Assembly: GCA_950295325.1 (NCBI GenBank)
Contig: OX485806.1
Span: forward strand, 48,109,169-48,173,168
Direction: 5' to 3'
DNA from: Polytrichum commune
Taxonomy: Eukaryota; Streptophyta; Polytrichopsida; Polytrichales; Polytrichaceae
DNA length: 64,000 bases
Each line of letters begins with the position of its first letter. Position 1 is the first letter of the stretch. Shown here piece by piece: positions 17,165 through 55,544 of this stretch. The notes below the pieces were generated by a model. That model saw only the letters and a program-made list of their open reading frames with translations. It was not told where the DNA came from and did no database searches. The position numbers and the translations under genes were made by a program.

Positions 17165-17260
17165 TATAACACCAAGACGCAATTTACTTAAGAGCTTATT
17201 TTCTAGTTTTTTTAGAATGAGGTGTGTGAGGTATTTTATGGTAATTTTGTTGTATATTTT

Positions 17261-20099
17261 TGTGAACCCTTTGAGTGGTCCACCACTCTGCGGGATCACT
17301 TTTAGTTAAAATGTTAGCATTAAAAGTTAGAATTGATAGGGAATTTAGGGAAAATTAGTTCATTTAGCATTTAGCCTAGAAGAAGGAAGGTCAAAATGAA
17401 ACTAAGTAGTGCTAGAAGATAGCAAAGTAGAAAAAATGTGCTAGCTAGTAAAAACAACTAGCTAAGCAAATATTAGTAGATGCTAGCTATTAAGCAAATG
17501 TTAGTAAATGCTAGCTAAGCAAGTGTTAGTTTATTAGTTAGTGTGAGGCACACAAGACTATTAGAGGTGGTTTAGGTAAGAAGATAAAATCGGCGTGAAG
17601 ACTTTTGAAGACAAAAAAGAAAGAGAGCAAGGGGGATACTTGCCCACTTGCCCCCTTGCCAACTCGATGGTGGAAAAATTAGAAAGATTTCTAAAGGTTT
17701 TTTGTCGGAGCCACCTCGGCGAGAGGGTGGCAACCTCAACCGGGAAAACCCCCGAGCCAAAATTTCGGGAAAGGGTTTGAAAAATGGATCCGGTGGAGGA
17801 GGGGTCCAACCCTTTTGTGAGAGGGTTTAAAAACCCCTCCTTCCACCTTGTAGCTCTCTCTCTTTCTCTAGTTTTTGGGCGAAGCCCTGCTTCAATGTAG
17901 TTAGGAAAAAATCCTTTAGCATGTATTCTCAATGGTCTAAAAGAAAGGCTTGAGAACCTCCTCTACTCTCTCTCTCCTAGTTAGGTTGTGTGTTTATTAA
18001 CACACCAACAAAATTATTCCTTCTTTTGTAGAGGTAGGTTGGATGGTAGAGTTTTGAGTAGAGGCATTATAGACCTCATCTGCCAATGCCCTGAAGGCTT
18101 AGTTCAAAAGCTAGAACAAGATACTTATCATTTTTCTCTTAGAGAGATTTCATATAGCTATCCATAGCCGTTTCCCATTTGTGATTTGGTTGAGATGACA
18201 ATTAGTTATGGATTTTCAAAGATGGAGTAGAAAAACTGGGTGGTCTTGTGGGTAGCGGCTGCTGGATCAGACCTGCGAGCCCAATAGGAATTTTAATTCC
18301 AAGAAATTATATTTTTCCCAAGTAGAACTTTTGTGTAGCTTTCCAAAATGGCTTAGAACATTTGATTTGAGCATGATTTGAATTAGATATGAATTGTGCA
18401 AGATGGGACACATAGTTTGAGAACTTTTGGTTGACTGCTGCATTACAGAGGACCTGCTGGGTTCACTTCGGCTTACCTTTCTAATCACATATTTTTATCA
18501 AATACACCTTTTTAATATCTCTCCAGGGTCATATAGAACGTTTGATTTGACTAAGATTTGAATTAGATATGAATTGTTGAAGGCGAGATACATAGTTCAA
18601 GCCTTCTTGATTGACTGCTGTGTTACAAGGAGTCCGCTGAATTTCTATTAGCTTAACCTGCTGATGTCATAATTTTTCTAGTTAGAGCTTGTTCATAGCT
18701 TTCCAATGGTATAAGGAAAGCCTAGATCCAAGTAGTAAGGAATGTGCTATGAATTTTTGAAGTTAGAAGGTAGATAGGTGGGTTGGAAGGGTCGGTTGAA
18801 TCGACCTCACACTTCCAACCCTCATAACTTTTGCATTTCTTATCCGATTAGAGTGATTTTTAGATCATTGGAAAGATAATTTGGTGCACTAAGTATAAAT
18901 ATTATGCTTAGGATTAAATTACAGGGCAGAATAACACTTTATATTTTAATTGTTAACTAAGGTACGCTTACTACCAAACTAGTTACAAAGAAGGAGGCAA
19001 GGTCGACGCTCGGAAAGTGGAGCAAGGAAGGAGGTAGCGGCTCGGCCTACATCAAGCCCAAATCAACCGAGGAAAATTGAGGTAAATTAACTAACCTTAA
19101 GCCTTCCATTTAGGATTGGAGGGAGCACGGCTAAGGTACGCATCTCTAAACCCACTCACCTATCTCGTAAGGTCAAGTGGCTTGACCACTTGACCGCCAA
19201 GGGAGTACCCAATTCCATTGTTTTCGGGGCCCTTGGTATGTTTTGTGGTAGTAGCTTCATTTATTAGCAAGTTTCGTGTGTGGTAAGTCGGATTAATCAC
19301 CGACACGACCACTCTGAATGTTGTTGGTGGAAAGGTGGGGTTAATGACCCGCGAATCCACTATTATGTTGTTGGCCCCATAGATTGGGAGTAATGGCCCC
19401 AATTTATGAAGATTGCGCAACAGGTTGAACCTACAGGTCGCCCGTCACCCTGGTCCCATTGAGTTGCATTTCGTGGTCTATCCAGTGTAAACACATTTAA
19501 CAATCAAAACATACCAAATAAATCGTAAACCCTTGTTGGCAAGAGACCCGAGGTAAGGGGTGATGCCTAATATGTTAATGTAGTAAGTTAGGACGTGCAA
19601 ACAAAAGTAAGTAATTAAGAAGGAATTTGTGTGAAGGGTGGGACTTAGGCCAAGTTCCCCCGCTTAGAAAACTAAATAGAACTAAATAAAGAAATAGGAA
19701 GAATTGAATGGTCCATCAAATTGTCGTTATTCCGTTCGTTGAGTTAGGGTGGTATGAGTCACACCCGGTTGGGTGTATCAGAACCATCCCAATTCACAAA
19801 TTAGGATTGCCTTGGTTTCAAGGCTGGTGCGTCTGCGCGTAGAATAGGTTGTAGGTTAAGGTTAGAACTAGATATGAAATTGGTTGGTGGAGTTTAAAGC
19901 CACACTAGTAAAAAACTAAGGCCTAACCTCCGGAGGTACTACGACGCATATTTAATCTCCCTTAAAAATCTAACTACTCACGTTATACACCTATCATCCG
20001 GGTTCAGCTTGGGCGCCTGCAAATGCAGGCCACCTTCACCGAAGGGCTTGTGTGATACTTTTAGGCTCCCTCGAAAGGGGGTGGCCCAAAAGTACCACA
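17261..20099 (+). mobile_element. R1 family solo LTR, 2839 bp (copy 1)
   Basis: Begins TGTGAACCCTTTGAGTGGTC and ends GGCCCAAAAGTACCACA; ATTTT is repeated at 17256-17260 and 20100-20104. TG...CA ends with a 5-bp duplication and no internal region identify a solo LTR. Copies at 32886 (direct) and 36247 (inverted, more divergent) share long stretches, including the CTCCCTCGAAAGGGGGTGGC end region and the block around AACCACTCTGAATGTTGTTG. Short open frames inside it look non-coding. Confidence 0.88.
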
Positions 20100-31689: not shown

Positions 31690-32885
31690 TGTAAGAGTTA
31701 CTTTGGGCAATCCTCCAAATGCGTTTTGTCTTCGAAAAACACCACGTCCGGACTCTTAATGATTTTTTTTCGTTTCCAAGCAAATGAGGCGATACACCTA
31801 AGTGTTTTTGCAGTATCCAAGAAACAAACATTTGACGTCCTTCGCGTCCAACTTTGTTCGCCTTTGATCCGACATCTTCGCATAAGCCACACAACCGAAA
31901 ACGCGCATGTGGGAGATGTGCGGTATCCTCCCGCTCCACGCCTCCTCGGGTGTCTTACCGTCCACGGCCTTGGTTGGATACCGGTTGCACACGTACACGG
32001 CATTGCACACCGCCTCCGCCCAAAATTCATGGCCGAGGCGTTGGGCATGAATCATGGACCGCGCCATCTTCACGATGGTTCGGTTGGCTCACTCCGCCAC
32101 ACCATTTTGTTGTGGCGTGTAAGGTGATGAGGTTTGCCATGCAATGCCATGTTTGCTCAAAAAATCGTTAAATGCCTTTAACACATATTCTCCACCGTTG
32201 TTCGTCCTAAGAACCTTCACTATGTGCTCTCCACCAAGATTTTCCATTCTTTGAACCTTGCCAAAACCTCGCTTTTGGACTTGAGCACGTACACTCAAAT
32301 CTTGCGCGAAAAATCGTCAATGAAGACGAGAAAATTCCTTGCGCTCCCCATGGACGGCATTTTCATCGGCCCACATACGTTGGAATGCTCAAACTCCAAG
32401 ACCTTGGTGGCGCGGGTACCTCCATCCGTGGGGAATGGTTGCCTCGCTTGTTTGCCCTCCACACATCCTTCGCATGCGAAGTAATGTGCATCACCTTGCG
32501 CCGCTCCCACATCCATTCCGTTCACCATTCAAGCATTTTCACGCTATTGGCGTTGAGATGCTCCAACTTTTTCTGCCAAAACTGTAAAGAATGCGAGTTC
32601 CCATCCAAATGTGCCAAAGACCTCGTTTCGGTCCCATTCGTCACATTCATGTCCAATTGGTACAACTTGGACTCCAACGATGCAATGGCCAACATCTCCC
32701 CGTTCTTGCCCTCACCACGTATCCCAACGACTTAAAATGTACCTTCAAACCCCTCGAAATGAGTTTGCTCACCGAAAGCAAGTTAGAATGCATTTTTGGC
32801 ATATGAAGCACGCCATGCATTCTAATGCTCTGCACACGACCTTTCACACGTGTTTTCACTAGTATAGAGCCTTTGCCTACGGCCT
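31690..32885 (-). pseudogene. Ty1/copia GAG-pre-integrase and integrase
   Basis: On the minus strand the remnant starts near 32885 (MVYKAVGKGSILVKTRVKG, then VLHMPKMHSNLLSVSKLIS), passes the pre-integrase zinc segment (FACEGCVEGKQARQPFP) and the integrase core (GPMKMPSMGSARNFLVFIDD, NNGGEY, YTPQQNGVAE, MRVFGCVAYAK, KCLFLGYC). The first two catalytic Asp residues are Asn (HSNVCGP, RTNNGGEY). A TGA follows VAE where CGA is expected, a CpG-decay change. Frames change several times. The 5-prime part is cut off by an R1 LTR at 32886; the C-terminal part ends at R2 sequence. Confidence 0.93.
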
Positions 32886-35402
32886 TGTAAACCATTAGAG
32901 TGGTCCAACACCCCGCGGGATTAGTTTTAGTTAGAATGCTAGCATTAAAATTTAGAATTGATAGGAAATTTAGGAAAAAGTAATTCATTTAGCATTTAGC
33001 CTAGAAGAAGGAAGGTAAATTACCGAGGACTTCAGGCCTTCAACTGGAAGAAACAAAAATCTAGATAAAGATAAGGTTGGCCAAAATGAAAACTAAGTTG
33101 TGCTAGAAAAAACATGCTAGCTAGTAAAAACAACTAGTTAAGATTTAAATTAGTAATTGTTAGCTAAACAAATATTAGTTTATTAGTTAATATAAGCCAC
33201 ACAAGACAATTGGAGGTGTTTGGAGTAAGAAGGCGAAATCGGCATGAAATTTTTTTTTTTTAAAAACAAGGGTCTCCCGTTGGAGCCACCTTGGCGAGAG
33301 CCACCACACCGAGTCAAAATTTTGGGAAAGGATTTGATGAATGGAGCCGATGGCAGAGGGATCCAACCTTTTTTTGAGAGGGTTTCAAAATCCCTTCTTT
33401 CCACTTTGGACGATCTTTCTTCTTTACATTGCTTGGGCAAAACCCTGTTTCTTTGTACTTAAGAAAAAACTTCTATTTTTCCTTCTCAATGGCCTAATAG
33501 TAAGGCTTGAGAAAATCCTCTACTATATCTCTTAATTAGGATATATGTTTGTTAACACACAAAAAATTCTTTCTCTCTTTTGTACAGGTAGGTTAGATTG
33601 TATGAATGCAAATGGATGCATTGTAGACCTTAGCCGCCGATGGCCTTAACACTTAATTCATGATTTAGAAAAACAAAATTATTATTTTTCTTTTATAAAT
33701 ATTTTTTATAGCTATATGTAGTCAATTTCTATTTGTGATTTGATTAACGTATCAGTTAGTTATAAATTTTCAAAGATGGAATAGAAAAACAAGGTGTTCC
33801 TCTAGGTAGCGGCTGTTGGATCAGACCTGATAGCCCAATAAAAATTTTAATCTTAAAAATTTATATTTTTTCCAAGTAGATATTTTGTCTAGCTTTCCAA
33901 GGTTGTTTAGAATGTTTAATTTGAATAAGAAATGAATTAGATACAAATTTCTAAAGACAGGATACGTTGTTGAAAACTTCCTAGTTGACTACTGTATTAC
34001 AAGGAATGTGCTGGATTCAGCTTGGCTTAATTTACTGATAGCATATTTTTTTCAAATAGACTGTTTTAAAGCTTTCCAATGGTGTATGAAAATACTAGAT
34101 CCAAGTAATAATGAATGTACTATAAATTTTTTAAGTTGGAAGTTGGATAGCTACAAGGAAAAAGACAAGGTCAACATCCGGGAAGTGGAGCAAGGAAGGA
34201 GGTAGCGGCTCAACCTACATTGAGCCTCATCAACCAAGGAGAATTGAGGTAAACTAACTAACCCTAGCATTCCATTTAGGGTTGGAGGAAGCGCGGCCAA
34301 GGTATGCATCCCTAAACCCACTCGCCTATCTCATAAGGTCAAATGGTTTGACCACTTGACCGCCAAAGGGGCACGCAACACCATCGTTCTCGGGCTTCTT
34401 GGTGTGTTTGTGGTTGTAACTTTATTTATTAGCAAATTTCATATGTGGTAAGTCGGATTAAGTATCAACACAACCACTCTGAATGTTGTTGGTGGAAAGG
34501 GAAAATTAATGACCCGTGAATCCATTACTATGTTGTTGGCGTCGTGAATTGAGAGTAATGGCCCAAATTTATGAAGATTGCGCAACATGTTGAACCTACA
34601 GTTTGTTTGTCACCCTAGTCCCATTCAGTTGCATTTCTTGGTCTATCCAATGTAAACACACCTAATAATTAAAAACATACAAAACAAATCCTAAACCCTT
34701 GTTGACAAGAAACCCGAATCGAAAACTTAACTCAATAGGGTGATACTGGCCTTCGGACCGTTGAAATCCGAAGGGTTTGAGATCTTTCTTGACCTTCAAA
34801 GGACCCGCACAAGGCCTTAAAAGGTTCCGAGCTAAGGGATGCACCAACTAGATAAGGTGTGATGCCTAATATATGAATGTAGGAAGGTAGAATGTGTAAA
34901 CAAAATTAACTAAATAAAAAAGAATTTATGTAAAGGGTGGGACTTAGGCCAAGTTCCCTTGCTTAGGAAATTAAATATAACTAAATAAAGAAATAATAAA
35001 GAATTGAATGGTCCATCAAATCGTCGTTATTCCGTTTATTGAACTAGGGGTGGTACGAGTCACACCCGGTTGGTGTGTATCAGAGCCATCTCAATTCACA
35101 AGTTAGGATTGTCTTGGTTCCAAGGCTGGTGCGTTTGTGCTTAGAATAGGTTGTAGGTTAAGGTTAAAACTAGATATGAAATTGATTAGTGGGGTTTAGA
35201 GCCATAATAGTAAAAAATGAAGGTCCAACCTCCGGAGGTACTACAACGCATATTTAATTTCTTTCCAAAAATCTAGGTATCCACGTTATACACCTATCAT
35301 CCGGGTTCCACTATGGCACCTCCAAGTGCAAGCCACCTTCACCAAAGGGTTTGTGTGATACGTTTAGGCTCCCTCATAAGGGGGTGGCCCAAAAGCACCA
35401 TA
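32886..35402 (+). mobile_element. R1 family LTR (copy 2), lying in copia
   Basis: Starts TGTAAACCATTAGAGTGGTC and ends AAAAGCACCATA, matching R1 copy 1 along its length apart from indels; copy 2 is about 320 bases shorter. No flanking 5-bp duplication was found (GGCCT against CATTA). Copia does not resume on the right. It may therefore be one end of a larger rearranged element rather than a simple solo LTR. Confidence 0.75.
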
Positions 35403-36246
35403 CATTAAAATATCGATCTTTTAACATTAAACCAGTAGAAGTATCCGATGAGGCTTTTGAACCTGCCACAACATGGGGGACTACCACTCAATCCCATTTT
35501 TAGGGTGGAAACCTTTGATGATATGAAGGACAAGATGTGACCATTTCCTTATAAGACTAGAAAATCCTATTTGGGACATGGATAAAGGAAAAATGTCAAC
35601 GCAATACTAGTTTTATTGATTTGTATGCGTTTGAGGTTATCTCCAATATTAAGAATACGAAGCATTCCAAAGCACTAATAATATGCTCATTGAATCGGGG
35701 TGCACCAAGTGGAGCAGTATTGGGATATTCAAGTGGTATTCGTTTCCGTATAGTTCCTTGGTCCCTTTCGTGATTAAGTTGGAAACATTAGAGGGTGTAT
35801 TTGTATTGAGTGTGGAGCCAACCATCCCTGGTGAACCTAAATATAAGGTTCCAGCTTACACATCCGCGAGTACGTTAAGTCTGATCATTTCATTTTTCCA
35901 TTTTGCCCAAGCTACCCGGGCGCCTTTAGCTTCTTTAAGGATTCCGCCAGTTTTTGAGCTTTTGCAGACATTCATTCTGCAGCTAGAAGAGGAATACAAA
36001 GGATTTCATTGAGATCATATGCAGCGGATACAAGATTTCAAGTGGAAGATGGGCAATACACTTCGTATCATGTATACAAGGTTCGCAAGGTTTTTCAAAA
36101 AGTCTAGAGGTGTTTTCGCAAAAAAATTGTTGATATAGGTTTTTTGTCAAAAATTGACAAACTTTTTCTTGACTTAGCGTTGCCTTAAATCATTATGAAT
36201 AATGATGGTGGGGCGACACTTGCAGAGGAATTTGCCATTATGGTAC
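35403..36246 (+). pseudogene. segment between two R1 LTRs with an unidentified open frame
   Basis: A 109-codon frame at 35683-36012 (KWSSIGIFKWYSFPYSSLVP, PVFELLQTFILQLEEEYKG) continues past a stop with DHMQRIQDFKWKMGNTLRIM. Position between oppositely oriented R1 LTRs and general character suggest the gag/ORF1-like part of a Ty3/gypsy element of Athila or Tat type, but no diagnostic motif is visible. No primer-binding site could be recognised at either LTR boundary. Confidence 0.3.
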
Positions 36247-38735
36247 TGTGGTGCTTTTGGGCACCCCCCTCCGAGGGAGCCTAAAAGTACCGCACAAGCC
36301 CTTCGGTGAGGGTGGCCTGCCTTGGTAGGTGCCCAAGCCGAACCCGGGTGTTATGATATTTAATATGTGTTTTGTGTTTGTGGAGGGATTTGATAATTAC
36401 GTCGTGTCCTTCTGATAGGTTGTGCCTAGATTTTAAGTGCCTAGGATAATTATCACGTTCCCTAACCTAATGCCTAATGCCCTAACGCTCAGACGCAGCA
36501 ACCTCATCCTTGCCGTCCGAAGGATAGTCTTAATCCTCCGAGTTAAGTTTCCGGTTGGTTCTTGCCCACGGGGGTCATACAAATTGTATTGGTTATTAAT
36601 TATTGTTTAACACAGTTTTACCACGAAAATTCAACTTGATGGGACCGGGGAATAAGACAATATGTGTGTTCAACCTGTTGCACAATCGTCAAGGGTTGGG
36701 GCCATCACCTCCAACCCTTGAGGCCAACAACATGGTGGTGGTTTCGTGGGTCATTACTCCCACTTTACCACCTACAAACATACAGAGTGGTCATGCCGGT
36801 GATTAACCCGGCTTCACCACACACGAACGAGTTATAAATGGAAAGCTACTACCACAACACTTCACCGAAAGGCTCCGTACACATGGGAGTTGGAATTCCC
36901 CTCGGCGGCTAGGTAAGTGATGCCCCCTTAGCCTTACATGGATAGTTGGATTGGGGTGAGAATTTACCTTTACCGCGCTTCTTCCATTCCTAAATTGAAG
37001 GGTGTAGAGTTGAAAAGCTTACCGATTGATTTCCATATTGGTTTGGCGATGGTTGGTGTGGAACCCCTACTCCAACGCTTGGCTGCCCACAATACCAACT
37101 CGTACACGCCAACCTTGGATGGACGAACCTCTTCTCGTAAGGCAGTAGACACCCCTTCGCTTAAGCGGCCACAACTTTTCCTCACAAGCTTCAATTGGAA
37201 CAATTATTAGTAATCTAGAAAGCTAACAAAAAGAACTACCAGTCATGCACTTATCAAGGCAATTGCATGTATTTTCTTAAAGATATGAGCTTACAAAGTC
37301 AGCTTTTAGAATTCAAGAGACAGCTGGGATACCTTCATTCAAACATACATAACTTTTCCTTATTAACAACCTTAGATTTTCTAGAAACCTTAAAATTAGA
37401 TCTACAATTGTCCCAAATATCAAAACAACTGCATGTTTCCTCATGCGGGTATGAGCTTACAAAGTCAGTTCTTATATTTTAGGAGGTAGCTAGGATATTT
37501 TCATTCAAACATTCATAAGTCTCAGTCCTTACTTTTTATTGTATCAAACTTATACTTTCTAGAAAACTAACAACAAGAACTATAAGTCATTTAAATATGA
37601 AAGCAAATAGATCATTTTTCTGTTAGTTATGCACTTGCAAAGTCAGTACTTGTAGTTTAAGAGGTAGCTAAAACATCTTCAATAAAACACTCTTAACTTT
37701 CACACATCAGATTAGATTCTAGCATGCTTACACATTCTAGTAAACTAACAATAAAACTTATAGCACGCTTAAATACCAAAGAAATTGAATGATTTTTCTT
37801 TTAGTTATGCGTTTGCAAAGTCAACGCTTGTAATTTAAGAGGCAGCTGAGACACCTTCATTCAAACACTCATAACGGTTACTCCCTAAATCAAATTCTTA
37901 CAATTTTAGGTTTTTTGGAAAACTTATATACAGGCTACATTCACTTAGAATCTGAAGGCTACATTGTAATTTTTGTGTCCACTACACTTGCTTGGAAGTG
38001 GCACAACTACTTAGGGGTGTGTTCAAAAACACTCTACCTTCTTTCAAGAGTTCTTACTATAAGAATTCTAACTTATACCTATATTGAATAAATGAGAATG
38101 TTTTTTCTCCTTCTTACGACAATTCTAGAGGGCTCCGCCGTGCAAAAAATGAAAATGTGGAGAGATGATTGAAATGAGAAGAATGGGTTTTTTTATCACC
38201 CTTCAAATAAAGGGTTGGGCCCCTTCTCCCTTTCGTTTACCGAGGGGTCCCGTTCCTTGAACGGTGGCAACCAAGGCCTCGGAGGAAAATAGGGGTGAAG
38301 GATGTCATCTCGCACCCCACTTGCTCAAGCCTTTAGGAAGGTTTTTCATTTCCGTTTGAAATTTGTTTTAGGTTGGCAAGGGTGGCAACATGGCCCCCTT
38401 GCCCTAGTTGGCAAAATCCCTTACGCTCGTAGTTGTCATTTTTTCTTTCTTTCTTGGCCGCTTTCGGAATTATCCTTGTTTTACCGTCGCTTGACTTTTG
38501 TTTGTTTGATTTGATTGTTCCTAACTAAACCTACCTACTTACTAGCCCACTACTTTTATACTCCCGATTTGGATAAAAGGCATGTCCCTTTTACCCCAAA
38601 GGTAAAACACCCCTAGCTAACCTACCTTAATCTAAAATATTTTTTGCTAAATTTCTTTATTACTAATCTAATGATTTTGCTAAAATACCTCAATTGTGAG
38701 CCAAATTGTTGTTGGGGGCAATTTTGACGCTCACA
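36247..38735 (-). mobile_element. R1-related LTR in inverted orientation (copy 3)
   Basis: On the minus strand it runs from TGTGAGCGTCAAAATTGCCC (38735) to GGGTGCCCAAAAGCACCACA (36247). The 3-prime 700 bases match R1 copies 1 and 2 closely; the 5-prime part is divergent and contains repeated GAGCTTACAAAGTCAG-like blocks about 170 bases apart (37285-37880). Flanking pentamers do not match. Confidence 0.6.
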
Positions 38736-39199
38736 TGTATAGTATAATCATGCATTGTGTCTATACAATGCCACAAATGGCGGTTGCAGGATTGGTGGCG
38801 GAAGTGGACAAGACCTTATATTGGTGATTTTGTGGGGAGTCGGGCCACACTAAGAAATAATATTCATTTAAACAAAAGAAAACCCAATTGTAAGAAACTG
38901 AAGCGGGAGACAAGTTTCTCTACTAAGAAACATGTAGGATTTTGGAAATGAAAATATTTTTGTCTTCTTTGGCCGTGGCAGGCTACTGCAAACATCCTTG
39001 CCTTTGAGGATCTCTAAAAAGTGGCCAAAACAGCGAGCGAGGTTTGCCGCGGAGGCCATTGCGTCTTGTGATGCACACACCTTAGATGATGGGGGCCCTC
39101 CAGATCTTATGACTCACGTGTATTTGCAAAAGTAGCTTACCTGTTCGATGTAGTTGCTAGACATGCTTGCGAGTATCAATGTATTCGACCAGATATTGT

Positions 39200-39744
39200 A
39201 TGTAAAGTGAATTTTGGTAATCAATTGGACTGGGCGCAACATTACTCGGGTTGCTTCCCGTTGTGATAATGAATTTGTGGCCACAAATAGTTATAATTGG
39301 CGTGAGGCTTGCCCAGGAGTTGGGATTGAAGGCTGAGGACTTGCCCATTCACCATCGTTACATCCATTGGCCATGTGGAATGAGCCATTGGTTATATTGG
39401 GAGCCATTACAGTTTAGTTTCCAAGTGCATCACGAAGATCCAACTGGACCTCTTTTTTTCAGGTGTGCGGTAACGAATGCGACCAACTATGACATTTTAG
39501 TTGGTTAGCATGCACTCTACACCCTCGGTTTTGGTTTACACAATTGGATTGAGGAGGCGTGGATCCGACCAAGATGGCCAAAGGGAGCTTATTCTTGTGG
39601 CGCTCAAAGCAGCCACGACCATAGCTCCAGTAACTATGGTTTTCGATGTGATGCTATTATAAACACATTGCCTTGTGGTTCTACCTTATTGAAGAAGACA
39701 CTCATGGAAAATATTGTGGATCAACGGGAAATGACACCTAAGGG
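39200..39744 (+). pseudogene. gypsy retropepsin-like and downstream region
   Basis: Frames read RLAQELGLKAEDLPIHHR and CAVTNATNYDILVG, then a stop and HALYTLGFGLHNWIEEAWIR. YDILVG followed by an aliphatic segment fits the C-terminal half of a retroviral-type aspartic protease (usual form YDhhLG). The catalytic DTG/DSG is not seen. The last 186 bases (39559-39744) are repeated to the right of the R2 insertion. Assignment depends on position before the methyltransferase and RT. Confidence 0.5.
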
Positions 39745-41763
39745 TGTAAGCCCTAAACCCCCACCCCTTTGCATCGTAGTCCGGGTGGGAGCCTGGGACT
39801 CACATGTAATCATTCGACACCATTGCTTCTTATGAGTTAGTTGTTGGATTGTGCAAGTGCAATCATGCAATACCCAACTTTTTATTTAATGCCACAAGGT
39901 TCCGAGTATTTAGAAATACTCCGATTACTCATGGTCATCCTAGAACAATAAATCCACATTCACACACAAGGTGAGCCAATGTACTATCCTAACTTAGCCC
40001 AATAAATTAGAGGTAGCACCACCATAACAATTGGTTGGCTTCCACTTGTTTCCCCACTTTGACTAATGCCCCAATGACGTCTTCCCAACCTCCCACATAC
40101 AACTCCAATCTACAGCCACCCCTAACCTCTAATTATCGTGGCTTCTGGCCTAATTTCCTACTGGCACTTAACCCCCAACTACTCTCTCAATTAATCCCCC
40201 CGTCCGACATTGCTGAATTCACTTCTGTTCCAGCAACACTGGGCTTATATCCAGCAGCCCACTGTTGATGTTGTCTTCATCCTCGGCAGCTGGAATCCCT
40301 CAGAGTTACATGAGCCCATACCCACTTACGTCCCAGCCTCGTCTCAGGCTACTTCCCCTCAGACCCTCTCCCGGATTCTTACTACTGCGGAACCACTCCG
40401 CTGGCACCCAGAGACTGAATGCTTGAATGTCTTGGCAGTCCCCTCCTTCTGATACCTACTGCAACAACAAACACGGCATTTCCCGTTCCTTGCCCGTGAA
40501 GGACCGAATCCTTGAGTTCGTCCGTGGAATCCTGAGCTCTTGATGAGGTTAGTCTTTGAGTGTTTGATTCTGACAGGTGCTACATTCTCTCCCCCCCTGC
40601 TCAATTCGGGATGAATCTAATGGCAATGTCTCCGAATGCCGTCCACGCTCCTCCGAATTGAGTTCCGAACCTTGCCCAGCTGAACTGAATGTGCTGGCCA
40701 TTACTCCCCCTAGGCTCAACCCAATGTCGCCCTTACTACGGTTCATCGCCTTCACCCCTTCCCTCTGATGCTCCCACAGGGTACCCCTTTTTCCCTCCTC
40801 CTTGATTTCCCAGGCACCTCCCATTCTGTAGTTGCTCCTAGCAGTCCCGCCTCACCTCCTGGCTGCCGACGCCATTACCCATAGTCACATTCTCTAGTTT
40901 TTTTCCCAGGCAACCCCTTGTGAAGCAATTACCCACCGAATCCAGAAGGAGGTGTTCTCGAACTCTCCACAGCGCCTTGCCCCCTCCTCCTTGCGGCAGC
41001 TCCCAGCCACCTGTGTGTGTCTCCCCTCCGAGGTCAACTGGCTGATAGTCGGCATTGCTATAGCTCATTCACGTGCAGCCACCGAGTCCTCCAAAGGGCC
41101 TAGTGCCCTTTCCCGAATGCCTCACCTCCTCCCGATGAGCCAGGTCTCACTTCGGTTGCAAGAGATTGGTTGCTAACCAAAATGGTTCTCTGTTTTGACC
41201 TCCCAGCTGCGTGCATTGATCTCTCAACTCCATGCCTGATTCTTGTGCTCGATTTGCTGCCATTCCTGTGGCGGCAATCCTAATGCGAACCTCACATGGC
41301 CCTTGTTGCGGCTCAATCTTGCATCACGCCGCTGGTGGCATCTGCTCTTGGCCGCTTCCTCTCTTCACCATGCTGTCCCGTAACCAAAAATCCAGAACCC
41401 CTAGAGCCACCGAGAGTCCACTGTTCGGAGTTGGGAAGGTTATCCGGATCTCAGTGACCCACCCCCTAATTCAAACACTAATTTATCCTAAAACCCTTAA
41501 CTCGACCCCCCAACTAACTTATTACCATCTAAATTGGCTCCAAACAGATCTTAACTCTCCCTAATCAATCAATTAATTCCCAACTAATTCGTCAAGACTG
41601 GAGTTACCCAAGTCATCTCCACGCCAGTTCTTAACTCAACTCAAACCTAAACACGAAAGCTTAACTCTTTTTATCCTTTTGAATATTTCAACATCAATCT
41701 AAAGCCTAAGTTTCCAATGAATTAAAGGTCAAAACCATATGTGGGCCTAACATTGGGCTCACA
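39745..41763 (+). mobile_element. R2 family LTR (copy B) inserted in the gypsy polyprotein
   Basis: Starts TGTAAGCCCTAAACCCCCAC and ends ACATTGGGCTCACA, with the R2-specific TTTGCATCGTAGTCCGGGTG after the start. Instead of a 5-bp duplication, the flanks share about 185 bases (39559-39744 and 41765-41947). Short open frames inside it are not considered coding. Confidence 0.8.
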
Positions 41764-41947
41764 GGTGGATCCGACCAGGATCTTCTGTCGGGGACTACGA
41801 CCATAGCCACGACCATAGCACCGTTATCTATGGTTTTTTTAATGTGATGTTATTGTAAACACATTGCCTTCTGGCTCCGCCTTATTGAAAGACACATTGG
41901 CACTCATGGAAAATATTGAGGTCCAATGGAAGATGACACCTAAAGGT
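41764..41947 (+). repeat. second copy of the 185-bp gypsy segment flanking R2 copy B
   Basis: Direct repeat of 39559-39744: shared blocks are GTGGATCCGACCA, GCCACGACCATAGC, AACACATTGCCTT and GACACCTAA. The two copies differ by many substitutions and small indels, so they are not a recent target duplication. Confidence 0.8.
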
Positions 41948-42059
41948 GCATTGGTGTGCCATCCCAAGGGTCATCTTCTTCCTTAGCGTGATTCTGCGGA
42001 GCTACTCCGAAGATGTGATGACATTGTCCTCTTTCTACGTTCTACGATACTAGTCATAC

Positions 42060-43077
42060 TAGATACCCCATTGCCGTTAGCATATTTCATTCCATGGAGG
42101 CCGCTAGACGAGGGGATCATTTTGGTGTAACTGTTAGGTAACATCAACATAGGATTGGCGGTTATGTTGGAGGTTGGCCTCATGGTTTGACAGTATGTTT
42201 ATGTCCACCCGTGTGGCTCATCACCATTTACACCAATTTATGGTGTTGTACCCATAGTAGTTAAACTCAACTACAATCCGTGGGTGATTTGGACGACTTC
42301 CACATAATATTACACATATCAATGAGGAAGACTTGTGAAGGTTGGATCACATGGATCTGGTGATTGCGGGATGGCCATGCTAGGGCCACTCATGTGCTGG
42401 AGCAGGCCAAGGTTTAGTGGATCCCATGTCTAGTCTTTTCAAAGACCTCATCTAGCTCATGGAGTGGTGGTTTGTCCACCAACCTTTCCCTCCTGGGTAC
42501 ATATTTGAAAATGTACCATTGTTAGGAGATTTAGTGTTGGAAAGAAAAAATTATGTTTGTGAATACCTTGGAAATTCCAATTTTTGTGGATGCCGCAAGA
42601 TTTGGTTCGTATTCCCACCGTCCTCAATGATTCTAGACCAACCTCGCACCGCTATCCACTTTAGCTGCAACAATTTTTGTGGTTTCTTCACCTTTTGATT
42701 AGAAGGTGGATGACATCTTGGATCCAAACCGGACCTCTTTGTTGGTTGTTGAGATGATTTACCCCATTGGCATTGGTCAACAAAGTAGGGGCACCATGGA
42801 GGGTTTTTTCAACCTTTATGATTTTTCACAATCAGTTGCATTCCACAATCTGGGGCCTGGTATGATGTGGGATGCTCAGACTAAAATCCACTGTGAACCC
42901 CTTGCCGATGAACGTAAATGTCCTATGGGATTCCAGACTAGAACCACAGTAACTCCTGGCTTTTCATATGCTAACGGCGGTTTGGGTTGGGCCAAGCCAT
43001 GGATCTTAACACCATGGTGTGGATTGTTGGTTTATGCATTGCATTGCAAAGGCATCGTGGTGACTACTTGTTTTTAG
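42060..43077 (+). pseudogene. DNA (cytosine-5) methyltransferase domain, Dnmt3-like, in gypsy pol
   Basis: Catalyses transfer of a methyl group from S-adenosylmethionine to cytosine C5 in intact relatives. Motif I: ILV-stop-LLGNINIGLAVMLEVGL at 42116-42171, matching the LFDGIxTGL plan, then QYVYV. Motif IV: DLVIAGWPC with the catalytic PC at 42375-42380, TAG where CAG (Gln) is expected, then GHSCAGAGQGL and SSLF. Motif VI: FENV (GAA AAT GTA at 42507-42515). Motif VIII: DAARFGSYSHRPQ, then F and TNLAP at 42589-42654, resembling the HRARYFWGNL segment of Dnmt3. Motif IX: ADERKCPMGF at 42904-42933. Motif X: RRFGLGQAMDLNTMVW at 42975-43022. Several frame changes and stops make it inactive. RT follows in the same orientation, so it is part of the retroelement. 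Dnmt3 affinity is a judgement from motifs I and VIII. Confidence 0.85.
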
Positions 43078-43407
43078 GGACAGAGGACTTTGGTAGGGGG
43101 CATAGCGGTCCACATTCATGGAAAAGGGAATTGAAACCATTGTTGTAGAAACCCCAAAAATCTCTCAATCAAGCAGCAAGTGATGGAGGAGCTTTGAGCT
43201 CAACAATTTTATGTTGCTTTGGTTTCCAAGTTATAGAGAAATGAGGCACAAAGTATATATGCATGAATGGTTTCATTTTATTCTCTGCATTCGGTGGTGG
43301 CTTCATCATCACATGTTATTGGTGATGAAGGGAGGCCAAATTCTACTACTAGCATTAAGGTTGGGGGCATGGTTAATGCGCCCTCCTCTTAGTCGCAGTT
43401 AAAGTTT

Positions 43408-44430
43408 GTGCCAACATCAGGTGGTTCTCCTTTGGTGGAAAGCGTGACTACAAAGTTTGATGAGTGGCCATTGGAATTAGGCATTCATCTCATTAGTGTT
43501 GGGACACAAAAAATACGAGCATTCATTTGCTCCTACTGTAGGTGTCTTACTTTAAGCTTTCAAGATGTTGAAGCCTACAAAGGAAAATCCATCCACATTC
43601 AATTGGAGGAGGACCAACCTATTTTTTGGAAACCTTAATAGGCTTGTTGCCGAGAGCTTTGGGCAACAAGGTTGATCAAATTTCTCAATGGAAAGTATGG
43701 TTGGGCTACAGTTATGCCATCAAACAATAATATACTATGCAATTGGACAGAGAAACGGATGTGCAGGAATTACCATCTAGTTAACCAAAAGACCAAGTCG
43801 AATTGATATCCCGTGCCAATCTCAAAGGAGTTGTTCAATATCATCGAATTTTTTGAGTCTTTAGCACCCTACCCTAGACTTGAGATCCCACTATCGCCAG
43901 CTCCCATTACTTGTGGGAGATCTTGCGGAAAATTATATTTTGGAAATTCATTATGATGGAAAGGATAAACTATATCATTGGAAGTTTCTTCCATTTGGCT
44001 TGAAGAATTCACCTACTAAGTTTTAGAGAGTGATGGTATTTTCTCGCTTGCTCTTTGCTCGGTGTTACATTGATGATGTGATCATTTTCAATAAGACACC
44101 ATAAGAGCATGTGAGGCATCTCCAAGTCATTTTTGTACGATTGTAGCGTTGGGGATTGCGTTTGCACCATGGCATGTGCAAGTTTTTCCATGATTGACTA
44201 GCATGCCTTGGGCATATGATTATCCCAAGAGGTCTTGGGGTGCAACAAGTTAAGGTGGACGCTTTGCAAAATATTATGACACCGGTCAATGTGCTGAGAC
44301 TTCATGCTTTTTTGGGCTTGGCAAATTATTAGCGTCAATCTTTCAAGAACTTTAGCTTCATCGCTAGGCCTCTTACCATTCTCACAAGCAAGGACCTTGA
44401 ACTTGGAGTTATGGGCAACAACATGCATTT
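43408..44430 (+). pseudogene. Ty3/gypsy reverse transcriptase
   Basis: The N-terminal part reads VEAYKGKSIHIQLEEDQPIF and, in another frame, NGKYGWATVMPS and NWTEKRMCRNY. The core reads YHWKFLPFGLKNSPTKF (43973-44023) and the catalytic RCYIDDVIIF with YIDD at 44066-44077 intact. The connection region reads LHHGMCKFF, LGHMIIPRGLGVQQ and AFLGLANY. Stops occur at several Gln, Glu and Tyr positions. It lies about 330 bases downstream of the methyltransferase. Confidence 0.92.
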
Positions 44431-44439
44431 GAGACATTA

Positions 44440-44954
44440 AAGCATAGACTGGGTGTGGCTCCACTGCTTAGACGTCCATATGTTTCCAAATATTTTGAGT
44501 TGCATACAAACTAGAGTTCGTTGGATTTGAGAACAATTCTCACTCAGATGGATGATTATGGCCGGGAGTATGTTGTTGCTTAAGCTTCGCGGGGTAACAA
44601 CACTACGGAAGCCAATTATTCGTGTTATGAGAGAAAACATTGGCAGAGGTGTAGGCTATTGACCATTTCCAGCCATATCTCTATGGTCAGCGTTTTAATT
44701 TGGTGACTGACCATCAACCTTTACGGTGGCTCATGGAGTCGGATAAGCTTACTGGCAAGTTTGCCATGTTCGTTTTATTCCTCCAAGAGTACAACTTTGA
44801 GGTGGTACACCGTGTCGGTGTTACCAACTTGGATGCAAATGGATTCTCATGCAATCCAAGCCCTTCGAACGAGGAGTTGGAGCCCATCAATGTGCGATTT
44901 GAAAAAAATGAGTTGCATGAAATAAATGAGGTGGTGTTGCATGTGACCTTATAG
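44440..44954 (+). pseudogene. Ty3/gypsy RNase H
   Basis: LVTDHQPLRWLMESDKLTG, LQEYNFEVVHRVGVTNLDAN and FSCNPSPSNEELE are the typical C-terminal half of gypsy RNase H. Upstream, frames show REYVVA and ANYSCYE-like pieces broken by stops. It continues directly from the RT. The frame ends at a TAG at 44952-44954; no integrase coding follows. Confidence 0.88.
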
Positions 44955-49638: not shown

Positions 49639-50611
49639 TGTCGCAACCCTTGCTAGCCCCCCTAGCAATCTTGCCAATTTTCCTTTCAAGCAAAGGTTAC
49701 GAGCGCTAACCCTTCGTATACCGCCATGCTAATGGTTAGCTCCTCCTACCCCAGACCATATAGTTCATAGGAGGGAACCAACCCTCCTACTTTGCTTTCG
49801 GGACTCACCCCTTAATCGGTAACCCATTTCTTCGATGTGGACTTCCATCCATGGAAGTCCAATCCTATGTTGATCATCGCATTGCCGAAGCAACACTACA
49901 ACAACCCGAAGCATACTAGGCAACTATGGCCTCACAATGGGCCAAAGCCCATGAAGGCCGTGCCGTTAGGCCTCGGGTGGGTGAGGCCACACCACCTCAC
50001 CCATGTAAGCCTCTAGGACTCTACGCGGGGCCCCTACCCCACCGTCAAGAGACCTCTTGTCTCTCTCCCAAGAGTTGGGGCCAAGTAGACACTTTCCTTT
50101 AGCTGCTGGGCCTGGAAGCCCCTAGCAGCTTCAGACCATCATAACTTCCTTGTATGAAGTCTGATGCTAACAAGCGACCACTCCATCTTCATCTACGCTT
50201 CACGTAGATACCGATGGACTCCTCACTTGCCCCATTCAGGCAAGTCTTAAGGAAGTTATGCTTGTTTGAACCTTGGCAGTCCCGGGAATCACTCCCAGGC
50301 ACTGCTGTACCAGGGCGCTGTCCCTGGACAGCGCCCCACTCAAATTGCCATCACTCCTAGCTCACACCTCCGATTGAGGTGTTCTTGAGCATTCTAGAAT
50401 CACCACGCCATGCGCTACGCATAGCTCATGGCCTCACCCTTGTGCCTCCTAGTCTATGTGGGTGGGAGGCGTTATCAACGCCCGGGGCCCTCACCCACAC
50501 TAGGATCACTTGGGCCCTCTCACCAACGGCGCCACAAGTCCCGGGTGTCACTCCGGGGTTCCCCTTGTGCCCATGGTGTTTCGGGCACTCCTCATGGAGA
50601 GGTGCGCGACA
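49639..50611 (+). mobile_element. R3 family solo LTR, 973 bp (copy 1)
   Basis: Starts TGTCGCAACCCTTGCTAGCC and ends GAGAGGTGCGCGACA. Flanking pentamers are AAACG (49634-49638) and AAATG (50612-50616), identical except for one CpG-decay change. It is more GC-rich than its surroundings. Four hairpin-forming sequences lie at 49839-49860, 50190-50209, 50313-50336 and 50408-50431. No internal retroelement region is attached. Open frames inside it are not considered coding. Confidence 0.88.
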
Positions 50612-52469
50612 AAATGGGTCTTTGCAATGTGGTGTCAGACTCGCTAAGTAAACGGAAAGAATACTAAGCAAGGAGCAAAATCCAAATCTTGTGTCTAATG
50701 TTGATTGATGAAGGAAACTTGTGATGCAAGATAAGGTAGGGCAAAGCGCTCAAAGAATAAAACTTGTGATGCAAAAACTTAAATGAGTTACAAGTTCATC
50801 TTGATAAAGACAAACTTGGTATTAAAACAATTGCAACTACACTTGAAGTAATGTACTTACATACCATTGTTTAGCATGGGCAATTTAGGCCCTTTGAATA
50901 GTTTAGCCTAATTCTTCATGGGCATCAAGTGTTAGGTTAGACCTTTTTAAGGTTGACAGGTATCTCTAACCATGATGACACCCATTAATACATTTTTTAA
51001 AACCTATTAAGCAAAGAAATAGTCTAATCATCCATTTGTCCTATGTTGCAAAAGCAATGTAAGAAACAAATTTTTTTCTTGGTGTCCTCATTGTAGATGG
51101 ATGTGTAATAATATAGTTGGATGCCATGATGGTTTGTTGCCCACTAATGACGATAAGTTTCTTCCTCTTTATCTAATTCCATTCACGCAATTTTGGTCAC
51201 ACCTCCCTAGGCTTGAAGTTGGGCATTATACAAAGGCGGTAGTTGGTCTAAGTTTTTTCTACTTGGGAAAGAGTATTTATGACCTTCTCAAAACAATTTT
51301 TTTTCTACTACCTAAAGTTGGAAAAAAACACATCAATTCTTGAAGATCGATAGGAGATTCTCACATAAAACCAAAGGCTTATAAACATCAAGTGGTATTG
51401 CCTAAGTAAATTTTCATTTCATCAATGTACTTAAATAAATTTAAGGAAAAAATCCATTCCATATATATACATTTTTCCAAAGGTATTTTCAAAGACTTTG
51501 TTGTTATTTCGCACGGTATCCAAGTCTTTGGACTTGGATTTATATCCTTTGCCATTTTATTTTCTTTTGGGGATGACACATGCATTCACATGCATCCGCA
51601 CAAGCTTGCCTCTCCCTTGTTTATTTTCTTCATGCACAATTCTGGATCTACATCCTCGTTTATATCTTCATTCACCTCTTTTTCCAACACTTTGTCATCA
51701 TCCATTTGAATGATCTTGACTACTATTGGTTTCTTACGTTGTTTCTTTTAACAACATATTCAATAATTGAAATAAGAGCCATAGGAATAATTTTATGTGT
51801 TACCTTGTGTACATGTAAAAAACTACCAACTATGGTATTTGATCTATAGTTATGTTCCTCAATGCCTAGTCACCCACCATCCGTTTTGGTCAGTGTTGAG
51901 CTTCTCCCGATAGCATTTGAAGTGAATGTGATCTTTACTCTTATGATCAACAACTGCAAGTTTGGCATGAGAGTTTGGAGATAATTTTTAGCATTGTCAT
52001 TAGATTCAAGTATTGAATATGTTTAAGAGTATACTCTAGAGTTCATGTAGGTTTGAGAAATAAATTGATGGAGGAGAAGCATAAATTTGGGAATCAAATT
52101 TTAATAAATATATGGAAGTACAAAAAAAAATCACTCACACACATCAATGCCCACAAGGTGATGAGTTCATTTAATGTAGTCCATGTAGAGCCATAACTAC
52201 CGTATTGTCTTCCATTCCTTTTTCTGGTCACTAATTTGTTCAATACACTCTTTTGCCTTGACATCTACAACTAGTAAGATGCAACGATGACAACCCGATG
52301 ACCTACTACAATGTGATGGTATTCTAGTTGGATCCACACCTATAGACATCCAATACTGTCAACACTTTGGAATCCGCATTGGAAGGTGGAGCCTTCTCGG
52401 ATTCGTCACAATGTCCCAAAGCTCCATTAAAGCAAAAACCTTCTCCATGTTGAATTTCCAAAGTATTAC
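50612..52469. other. AT-rich DNA, no recognised gene
   Basis: No domain or repeat family could be recognised. Short open frames on both strands lack coherent context. Confidence 0.5.
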
Positions 52470-53085
52470 GCTCCTCTCCATGAGAAATGCCCACAACACC
52501 ATGGAGAGAAGGGAAACCCTAGAGTGACATTGTAGACTTGTGACGCCATAGGTGAGAGGGCCCAAGTGATCCTAGTGTGGTTGAGGGCCCCGGGCATTGA
52601 GAGTGCCTCCCACCCACAAAGATTAGCAATCACTAGGATAAGGCCATCAACATGGAGTACCTTATGGCGTCCAAATTTTAGAATGTTCAAGGACTCCTTC
52701 ATTCAAATGTGTGAGCTAGCATATATGGCATTTTGAGTGGGGCGCTGCCAAGGAGCAACCCCCTAGAACAACAATGACCTGTGAATGGCATCCATGACTG
52801 CAAAGGTTAGAACAACCATAACTTCCTTAAAACTTGTTTGAATAGGGCAAGCAATTAGTCTATCAACGTCTACGCAAAGAGTAGATATTGATGGAGTGGT
52901 TGCTTGATAGAATAAAAGGTTTGACAACAAAAGTATGGAGGTTTGTAGTTGCAAGGTGACTCCAACCCCAGCCGCTAAGAGAAAATATCTACTTCACCTC
53001 AATTCTTTGAAGAAAAACAAAAGGTTACTTGAAAGTGGGATAAAGGCCCTGTCCAAAGTCCTAAAGGCTTTGCCAAATGTGATGA
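52470..53085 (-). mobile_element. degenerate R3 LTR fragment (copy 5)
   Basis: CTCCTCTCCATGAGAAATGC, GGGCCCAAGTGATCCTAGTG and GAGTGGGGCGCTGCC follow the order of R3 copy 2 in the same orientation, with about 20 percent differences by eye and loss of most hairpin arms. Ends are not preserved. Confidence 0.75.
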
Positions 53086-54564: not shown

Positions 54565-54569
54565 ATTTT

Positions 54570-55544
54570 TGTCGCGCACCTCTCCATGAGGAGTGCCCGA
54601 AACACCATGGACACAAAGGGGACCCCGGAGTGACACCCGGGACTTGTGGCGCCGTTGGTGAGAGGGCCCAAGTGATCCTAGTGTGGGCGAGGGCCCCGGG
54701 CGTTGGGAACGCCTCCCACCCATGGAGACTAAGAGGCACAAGGGTAAGGCCATGAGCTATGCGTAGCTCATGGCGTGGTGATTCTAGAATGCTCAAGAAC
54801 ACCTCAATCGGATGTGTGAGCTAGGAGTTATGGCAATTTGAGTGGGGCGCTGTCCCAGGACAGCGCCCTGGTACAGCAGTGCCTGGGAGTGATTCCCGGG
54901 ACTGCCAAGGTTCAAACAGGCATAACTTCCCCAAGACTTGCTCGAATGGGGCAAGTGAGGAGTCCATCGGCATCTACGTAAAGCGTAGATGAGGATGGAG
55001 TGGTTGGTCGTTGGAATTAGACATCATACAAGGAAGTTATGATGGTCTGAAGCTGCTGGGGGCTTCTAGGCCCAGCGGCTAAAGGAAAATGTCCACTTGG
55101 TCCCAACTCTTGGTAGAGAGACAAGAGGTTGGTTCACGGTGGGGTAGGGGCCCCGCGTAAAGTCCTAGAGGCTTATATGGGTGAGGTGGTGTGGCCTCAC
55201 CCACCCGAGGCCGAACGGCAAGGCCTCCATGGGCATTGGCCCATTGTGAAGCCATAGTTGCCTAGTATGGTTCGGGTTGTTGTAGTGTTGCTCCGGCAAT
55301 GCGATGATCAACATGGGATTGGACTTCCATGGATGGAAGTCCACATCGAAGGAATGGGTTACCGATTAAGGGGTGAGTCCCGAAAGCAAAGTAGGAGGGT
55401 TGGTTCCGTCCTATGAACTATAAGGTCCGGGGTAGGAGGAGCTAACCATTAGCATGGCGGAATGCGAGTGGTTAGCGCTCGTAACCTTTGCTAGAATTGA
55501 AAATTGGCAAGATTGTTAAGGGGGGCTAGCAAGGGTTGCGACAA
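54570..55544 (-). mobile_element. R3 family solo LTR, 975 bp, inverted (copy 2)
   Basis: Runs from TGTCGCGCACCTCTCC to AGCAAGGGTTGCGACA, with ATTTT repeated exactly at 54565-54569 and 55545-55549. It aligns with copy 1 in reverse along the whole length. Hairpin positions are 54750-54773, 54845-54868, 54878-54903, 54971-54991 and 55321-55342. The intact duplication and few differences from copy 1 suggest the youngest insertion in this part of the window. Confidence 0.93.

Follow-up and report, generated by a model that had tools for sequence, protein, structure and literature searches.

The window analysed here is a 64,000-nucleotide stretch of Polytrichum commune contig OX485806.1, to which the coordinates below refer, and it almost certainly holds a broken copy of a retroelement that carries its own Dnmt3-type C5-cytosine methyltransferase (MTase). 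The MTase domain lies on the + strand at 42020-43079, scattered over three frames, where a sequence-only reading of this DNA had pointed out the corresponding motifs. That reading had called for a comparison with the methyltransferase family PF00145, which is matched by one unstitched window frame (28.2 bits, E 1.6e-6, curated cut-off 22). The other two frames over the domain match no family at E<=10, and a stitched read-through in which stops are written as X reaches 29.3 bits. Because the single unstitched frame passes the cut-off by itself, the match is more than chance. Recognizable motifs are distributed along the domain: a motif I region, LLGNINIGLAV, at 42131-42163; RLDHMDLV at 42339-42362 with IAGWPC directly after it; YIFENV at 42498-42515; FVDAARF at 42583-42603, then GSYSHRPQ; and GLGQAMD at 42984-43004.

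The domain is confirmed as a broken MTase of the Dnmt3 type, to which its motifs I and VIII had seemed closest. Among the 40 PDB sequences that it matches at E<=1, 29 are DNMT3A/B/C, its nearest solved relatives, and 11 are HhaI. In a protein search, 61 of 1807 candidates match at E<=1e-3, the best with E 1.7e-94 and 56% identity at 86% query coverage. Motifs I-IV-VI-VIII-IX-X stand in unrearranged order, with DNMT3 as the nearest family, and the predicted structure of the element MTase is DNMT3-like. Animal DNMT3A/B and plant DNMT3 share this motif order and give the best sequence and fold matches; unlike them, the element MTase is borne by a mobile element, has no ADD or PWWP match and carries GWPCQ and GQAMDL. 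Plant DRM enzymes have a related catalytic half, but their motifs are rearranged. The genome that contains the window has a host gene with the rearranged DRM order as well as an intron-split DNMT3 gene in plain order, and a DRM identity for the element MTase was rejected because it lacks the rearrangement. Flowering plants are not known to have a true DNMT3.

The window element, at 35300-44879, is an old, inactivated copy that is collinear with better-preserved relatives, and it reaches beyond the ends (42060 and 43077) given in the sequence-only reading. It is full of stops and frame shifts, in agreement with its earlier description as dead. All of its coding remains lie on the + strand. Gag remains, the N-terminal part of open reading frame 1 (ORF1), occupy 35300-36242 (tblastn pieces of ORF1 from relatives L022, L024, L008 and L037, best E 1.4e-28) and are interrupted at 36243-38779. 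Remains of the Gag C-terminal linker and of the aspartic protease follow at 38780-39763, where residues 722-901 of L022 ORF1 match 39263-39763 with E 5.7e-34; in blastn comparisons with relatives, identity is 75% over 38780-38856 and 72.9% over 38962-39746. Next comes a 2-kb stretch without counterpart in the better-preserved relatives (39747-41804), with a 144-bp duplication on both flanks (39611-39746 and 41805-41948, 79.9% over 144 columns in a window self-comparison); residues 856-901 of L022 ORF1 match on both of its sides. The C-terminal part of ORF1, consisting of linker, MTase and tail, lies in three frames at 41837-43389 (tblastn with L022 ORF1 856-1365), and 41805-43226 is 74.8% identical to L022. 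The MTase had been placed between protease and reverse transcriptase (RT) coding regions, which is correct, except that in the window the 2-kb stretch separates it from the protease. At 43388-43401, a site aligns by eye with an in-frame UAG and CARYYA sequence of the relatives (window CTTAGTCGCAGTTA, L022 CATTAGCAATTA); the stop position at 43393-43395 is TCG instead of UAG, with CAGTTA next. RT and RNase H, corresponding to ORF2 residues 1-507, are found at 43396-44879 (tblastn with L022 ORF2, E 6.1e-175), and 43293-44879 is 78.5% identical to L022.

A search of the host genome (408 Mb in 64 contigs, of which seven large contigs sum to 406 Mb) gave at least 123 scored PF00145 matches among 353 candidates. 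The 20 copies read were those with the longest open frames among the MTase matches, so that the presence of the MTase in all 20 reflects selection and the evidence is their shared order. In 18 of them, the Gag zinc knuckle, the protease and both MTase motifs stand in one frame, with RT after a UAG codon; the exceptions are L037, with a stop inside the MTase part, and L039, with an altered motif. These are better-preserved relatives of the kind that the sequence-only reading had thought possible, and they show its protease-MTase-RT order. The polyprotein that it had described is parted in them: ORF1 encodes Gag-protease-MTase, the MTase being its C-terminal part, and ORF2, which begins after the UAG, encodes RT-RNase H-DDE integrase-PHD finger.

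Pfam searches of L022, L024 and L008, a contig filed under a bacterial name (see below), match ORF1 to the MTase family (E 5.7e-12 to 8.8e-12) and, below that family's own cut-off, to a protease. ORF2 matches RT, RNase H, zinc-binding and core (PF00665) integrase domains and a PHD finger (E 1.4e-10 to 4.3e-10). The same searches gave no chromodomain match, no tyrosine recombinase match in ORF2 and no ADD or PWWP match in ORF1. The domain order is common to three subfamilies of the genome and to L008, despite saturation at synonymous sites. The motif IV cysteine is kept in 20/20 copies, and motif I takes the form IFGGIG in one subfamily. The family is a plant retroelement with a Ty3/Gypsy-type pol and its own Dnmt3-type MTase.

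The UAG between MTase and RT is in frame and followed by CARYYA in 20/20 copies and also in L008. The second codon after it varies (TTA, TCA, CCA) while the CARYYA pattern stays. We take UAG-CARYYA to be the type I leaky-stop pattern of the tobacco mosaic virus class, and the codon is a probable leaky stop. The ORF1 product would then be Gag-protease-MTase, to which occasional read-through would add RT-RNase H-integrase-PHD. Since the MTase lies in ORF1 ahead of the putative leaky UAG, it would be made in Gag-like amounts and could enter particles. Related proteins from the liverworts Marchantia (P0083) and Calypogeia (P0081) likewise end after the MTase.

The element is bounded by split direct repeats in the arrangement A1-ORFs-B1-A2-B2, which is found in 15 of the 20 copies (match lengths 300-567 bp for A and 105-233 bp for B); L040, which lacks the upstream stretch, shows B1 and B2. 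In one subfamily, B1 adjoins 38 of the 40 scored A2-B2 matches (1075 candidates). The other two, G000:C7:29069919-29070358 and G000:C2:22220678-22221116, are possibly solo A-B remnants. A palindrome at the B|A junction occurs, in one subfamily, 145 times in the genome, compared to 0 for the reversed pattern. Target duplications of 4 bp flank the start of A1 and the end of B2 in 14/14 readable copies (13 found by script and L036, whose duplication is itself TGTC, by eye; L028 has no located left start). Like Metaviridae (Ty3/Gypsy), the element has the order protease-RT-RNase H-integrase, a DDE integrase and a short target duplication; unlike them, it does not have two full long terminal repeats (LTRs), but A1 on the left and B1-A2-B2 on the right. 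The earlier Ty3/gypsy assignment is thus right for pol, whereas the split repeats, a self-priming signature and the PHD finger set the element apart from an ordinary LTR element.

Right after A1, a stretch of 12-15 nt is complementary to the middle of A in 15/15 copies, and 0 of 300 control windows per copy match as long. The site differs among subfamilies, three in the genome and a fourth in L008, each fitting its own A. Tf1/sushi-type Gypsy elements self-prime and have, after the repeat, a site complementary to their own 5' region. The site after A1 resembles theirs; in contrast to them, the element has a PHD finger, no chromodomain match, permuted repeats and the probable leaky UAG. A G-rich tract lies just before B1. 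From these two signals, the complementary DNA (cDNA) should end at the start of B and the end of A. These two ends are unlike among subfamilies, while the start of A (TGTCA) and the end of B (CACGACA), which are the ends bearing the target duplications, are alike. In 14 of 15 copies, the A2|B2 joint consists of the two cDNA ends placed together: 11 exactly, L033 and L035 with one substitution nearby, and L037 with the site set one base later. L030 is the sole copy with an imprecise joint, about 21 bp short at a CTTG repeat, which is possibly a trace of end joining or else of a later deletion.

Divergence between repeats was compared in 12 of the 15 copies, from two subfamilies. A1 and A2 of one copy are 0-3 bases apart (means 0.4% and 0.1%), compared to 1.5% and 0.9% between copies. 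In the second subfamily, B1 and B2 differ by 0 within copies and by 1.8% between them. These low divergences within copies indicate young insertions.

Codon comparisons indicate that the MTase is conserved under purifying selection. Among L008, L022 and L024, 343 MTase codons align without a gap, with proportions of synonymous and nonsynonymous differences (pS and pN) of 0.70-0.74 and 0.21-0.25. The ratio of nonsynonymous to synonymous rates (dN/dS) was computable for five of seven pairs, synonymous sites being near saturation. It is 0.12, 0.15 and 0.20 between subfamilies, where saturated dS leaves two further pairs without a value, and 0.17 for the within-subfamily pair L022-L036, so that four of the five computable pairs fall at 0.12-0.20. 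For the three pairs of L008, L022 and L024, RT and integrase give 0.03-0.05 (one integrase value is missing), and the ORF1 tail, at 0.34-0.65, is looser than the MTase.

In an MTase tree with DNMT3 rows, as the sequence-only reading had recommended, the window copy groups with L022 (support 100/97). Fifteen element rows and two DNMT3 rows stand apart from four bacterial rows (100/100), in a tree with long branches and few DNMT3. When host and human DNMT3 are included, the elements fall on one side (82/96) and the two DNMT3 are joined (96/95). This split indicates that the element MTases did not arise recently by copying of the host gene. Phage records matching the MTase weakly number 98; the 15 listed among them cover 34-55% with 24-32% identity. 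The fold is shared by C5-MTases predicted for phages and giant viruses (best E 3e-14, TM 0.55 relative to the query, identity 21%), in a fold search that, among predicted structures, was confined to viral ones; an origin of the MTase from phages or bacteria is not favoured. Profile searches with the MTase found seven loci in viral contigs, all partial matches at 25-58% identity, and, in genome contigs, L008 and four Streptomyces loci.

Relatives found by protein search are named from Marchantia polymorpha (P0083, P0086-P0089), Calypogeia fissa (P0081) and Closterium (P0099, weak), and P0083 and P0081 are encoded on chromosome-sized contigs. No row named Klebsormidium is among the protein-search matches. 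Motif IV is GWEC or AGxEC in P0085, P0091, P0092, P0100 and P0101 and in P0094, P0097 and P0098, with the cysteine kept. L008 (1-9285), filed as uncultured Synechococcales MAG81, contains the whole gene set of this plant-type element and has ends that overlap over 127 bp. Another element MTase, P0005, is named as a protein of an Obscuribacterales MAG. The two look like contaminants in bacterial records; P0005 gave no locus when searched for in viral and genome contigs.

The window copy is nearest to L022, at 75-78% DNA identity over MTase and RT. It differs at 355 of the 2060 sites where L022, L032 and L024 agree, with C>T or G>A changes at 47/159 CG, 59/171 CHG and 82/678 CHH sites. This bias is the footprint of 5-methylcytosine decay in plant contexts; it shows that the dead copy was methylated and does not discriminate between methylating agents. 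A probable leader or 5' part of the copy lies at 32885-35400 (+ strand). A second 5' piece, at 17260-20099, is 73-86% identical to it (the similarity of the leader extends over 17260-20097), which implies that parts of at least two related copies are in the window. Elsewhere in the window is an inverted pair, 49639-50614 and 54567-55543, with 93% identity, and a third relative of it at 52469-53070.

The nearest described element, compared by description, is KnitGypsy-Dnmt3 of Klebsormidium nitens, which the accessible text of de Mendoza et al. 2018 (PMC5890265) describes as having Gypsy domains and DIRS-like repeats, with an MTase Ka/Ks under 0.2. In both, the coding region of a Gypsy-type element includes a Dnmt3-type MTase, split repeats occur together with Gypsy domains, and the MTase is under purifying selection, although the range found here, 0.12-0.20, is at 0.2 in one pair. 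The present hosts, in contrast, are Polytrichum commune and liverworts, and the MTase is in ORF1 before a conserved UAG. The PHD finger, self-priming signature and 4-bp target duplications are features of the element described here that go unmentioned for KnitGypsy-Dnmt3 in that text, which does report CG methylation by retroelement DNMTs, de novo in the case of a dinoflagellate element's Dnmt3. Morozov et al. 2019, in the part available, state that land plants, such as tracheophytes, do not have such elements, and the available part of a 2025 paper restates the streptophyte and dinoflagellate cases; two further papers make no mention of them in the parts available. A literature search that was thin on subscription journals found no published land-plant family of MTase-bearing retroelements. 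The earlier statement that none is well described thus agrees with the literature, but relatives do exist among Marchantia and Calypogeia proteins. The same search, with the PHD finger included, listed endogenous-retrovirus work; leaky stops, self-priming and circle integration were outside it. Algal MTase elements are already known.

The domain order, UAG motif, repeats, target duplications, complementarity and conservation are observed features of the family, and they are probably best explained as a whole by an MTase-bearing retroelement with a leaky UAG, self-priming and circle-based integration. Reverse transcription would be primed by RNA of the element itself, folded back onto the site that follows A1, and plus strands would start at the G-rich tract before B1. 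Priming at both sites would yield a linear cDNA that is bounded on either side by B-A and whose ends would be joined (A2|B) into a circle. The DDE integrase would cut this circle at its internal B|A palindrome and insert it with a 4-bp target duplication, which would give A1-body-B1-A2-B2. A closed cDNA opened at B|A is the simplest account of A2|B2 joints that equal the sum of the cDNA ends and of target duplications at the start of A and the end of B. We favour the circle step by a modest degree. Intact copies are predicted, with high confidence, to encode an active MTase, which would most likely methylate newly made cDNA of the element, either ahead of integration or at that step. The methylated cDNA might then not be treated as foreign, might enter a tolerated chromatin state, or both. 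The chance that this self-methylation is the main role of the MTase seems about even. The integrase product carries the PHD finger, which probably recognizes histone tails at the target site.

Several observations weigh against this interpretation. The 20 copies were found via the MTase and chosen for long frames, and elements of this kind without an MTase were outside the search. No repeat pair is present in the fetched stretch of four of these copies (L021, L023, L031, L039), and two of the 40 A2-B2 matches lack B1. Small indels would be a frequent result of joining cDNA ends, but all except one of the 15 joints are precise. In the first subfamily, B1/B2 divergence within copies (0.6%) is little below that between copies (0.9%), a weak contrast. 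The near-identical pair L024-L027 has an MTase dN/dS of 0.76, on very few changes, and motifs IV and X are GWPCQ and GQAMDL rather than the SPCN and GRSW of human DNMT3A. The ends and integrase of the window copy were not found in the window: tblastn with the relatives' ORF2 gave no integrase or PHD part past 44879 at E<=1e-3, no convincing match to the A1 or leader of L022, L024 or L037 identifies an A1 repeat, and a search with the relatives' repeats found no A or B repeats.

Other layouts count on the same side. The gene model of Marchantia P0087, which is without motif IV, continues from MTase into RT, and P0091 and P0101, which are probably algal, encode MTase and RT in a single frame. 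In a second layout, likewise probably algal (P0094, P0102 and, by profile position, P0097), the MTase stands between RNase H and integrase, which may reflect either a second capture or a move. Gag-like amounts of MTase are thus not general. A PHD finger follows the integrase in second-layout proteins, whose MTases, with that of P0103, form one clade (99/98); three of their RTs group at 100/99, and both MTase and RT trees set these rows apart. P0095 and P0098, with integrase and PHD finger after the MTase, were grouped with this layout.

Other explanations can be offered for parts of the model. The MTase may act on host DNA, rival DNA or RNA, or may lower the element's rate to spare the host, which is possible though on the unlikely side. 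RNA methylation, protection and rate lowering are named as open roles in the accessible text of de Mendoza et al. 2018 (PMC5890265), and the dead window copy was methylated in CG and CHG contexts, which the host alone could achieve. The frame order speaks for cDNA instead, as it would put the MTase on the Gag-side product and send it with the particle in which cDNA is made.

The split repeats could be kept by RNA running through B2, or by a tyrosine recombinase of the DIRS/PAT kind, rather than by a circle integrated by the DDE enzyme. DIRS/PAT-type elements have split direct repeats, and the present layout is PAT-like. The K. nitens layout was called DIRS-like in the available text of PMC5890265. 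The element differs from DIRS/PAT-type elements in its PF00665 integrase core and its target duplications, and has no recombinase match in ORF2 of the three copies searched; a DIRS or tyrosine recombinase element was rejected on these grounds. In addition, A1 and A2 are more alike within copies than between them, B1 and B2 clearly so in one of two subfamilies, and the short L030 joint is what end joining would give, if it is not a later deletion. This alternative is accordingly judged unlikely.

An MTase domain that is non-catalytic and kept as a structural relic is improbable. Variation of motif IV in relatives (GWEC in five proteins, AGPEC/AGFEC in three) and its absence from P0087 as modelled would fit a relic; the cysteine kept in every copy read, low dN/dS in four of five computable pairs, gapless alignment and a DNMT3-like predicted structure argue for an enzyme. 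Less probable still is an ordinary tRNA-primed LTR element in which A is the LTR. In one subfamily, TGGCAAGAATGC in the site after A1 could pass for a tRNA site, but the other three have no TGG there (ACTTGACAACAAT, TACTTGTAAAAGAT, ACTTGACAAAGAT), which led us to reject tRNA priming for them, and all four match their own A. An independent insertion of a host gene piece or of another element into an ordinary Gypsy element, to which the duplication-flanked 2-kb stretch just before the window MTase and the host DRM and DNMT3 genes might seem to point, is hardly credible and was rejected, because divergent subfamilies, L008, Marchantia, Calypogeia and other relatives share one order (albeit in copies selected by MTase), the window MTase groups with that of L022, the elements' MTases do not join host DNMT3, and the 2-kb stretch lies outside the MTase; the MTase is part of the element, as the sequence-only reading had held.

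More tentatively, and with somewhat less than even confidence, the family may represent a class of circle-integrating retroelements in which self-primed cDNA with B-A ends is closed and then cut by the DDE integrase at the internal B|A palindrome instead of at the cDNA ends, so that the integrated form is circularly permuted. Particles of such elements would combine a Gag-side Dnmt3 writer with a PHD reader that belongs to the integrase side, new copies could arrive already methylated, and the elements would range from charophytes to bryophytes, with recent activity in the window's host. The circle model would provide a simple explanation for DIRS-like repeats left by a DDE integrase, which the accessible part of the 2018 report leaves unexplained. 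The probable leaky stop ties the MTase to Gag. For bryophytes, the Marchantia polymorpha and Calypogeia fissa proteins speak against the stated absence of such elements from land plants, and the family offers a many-copy system in which self-methylation by a genomic parasite can be tested.
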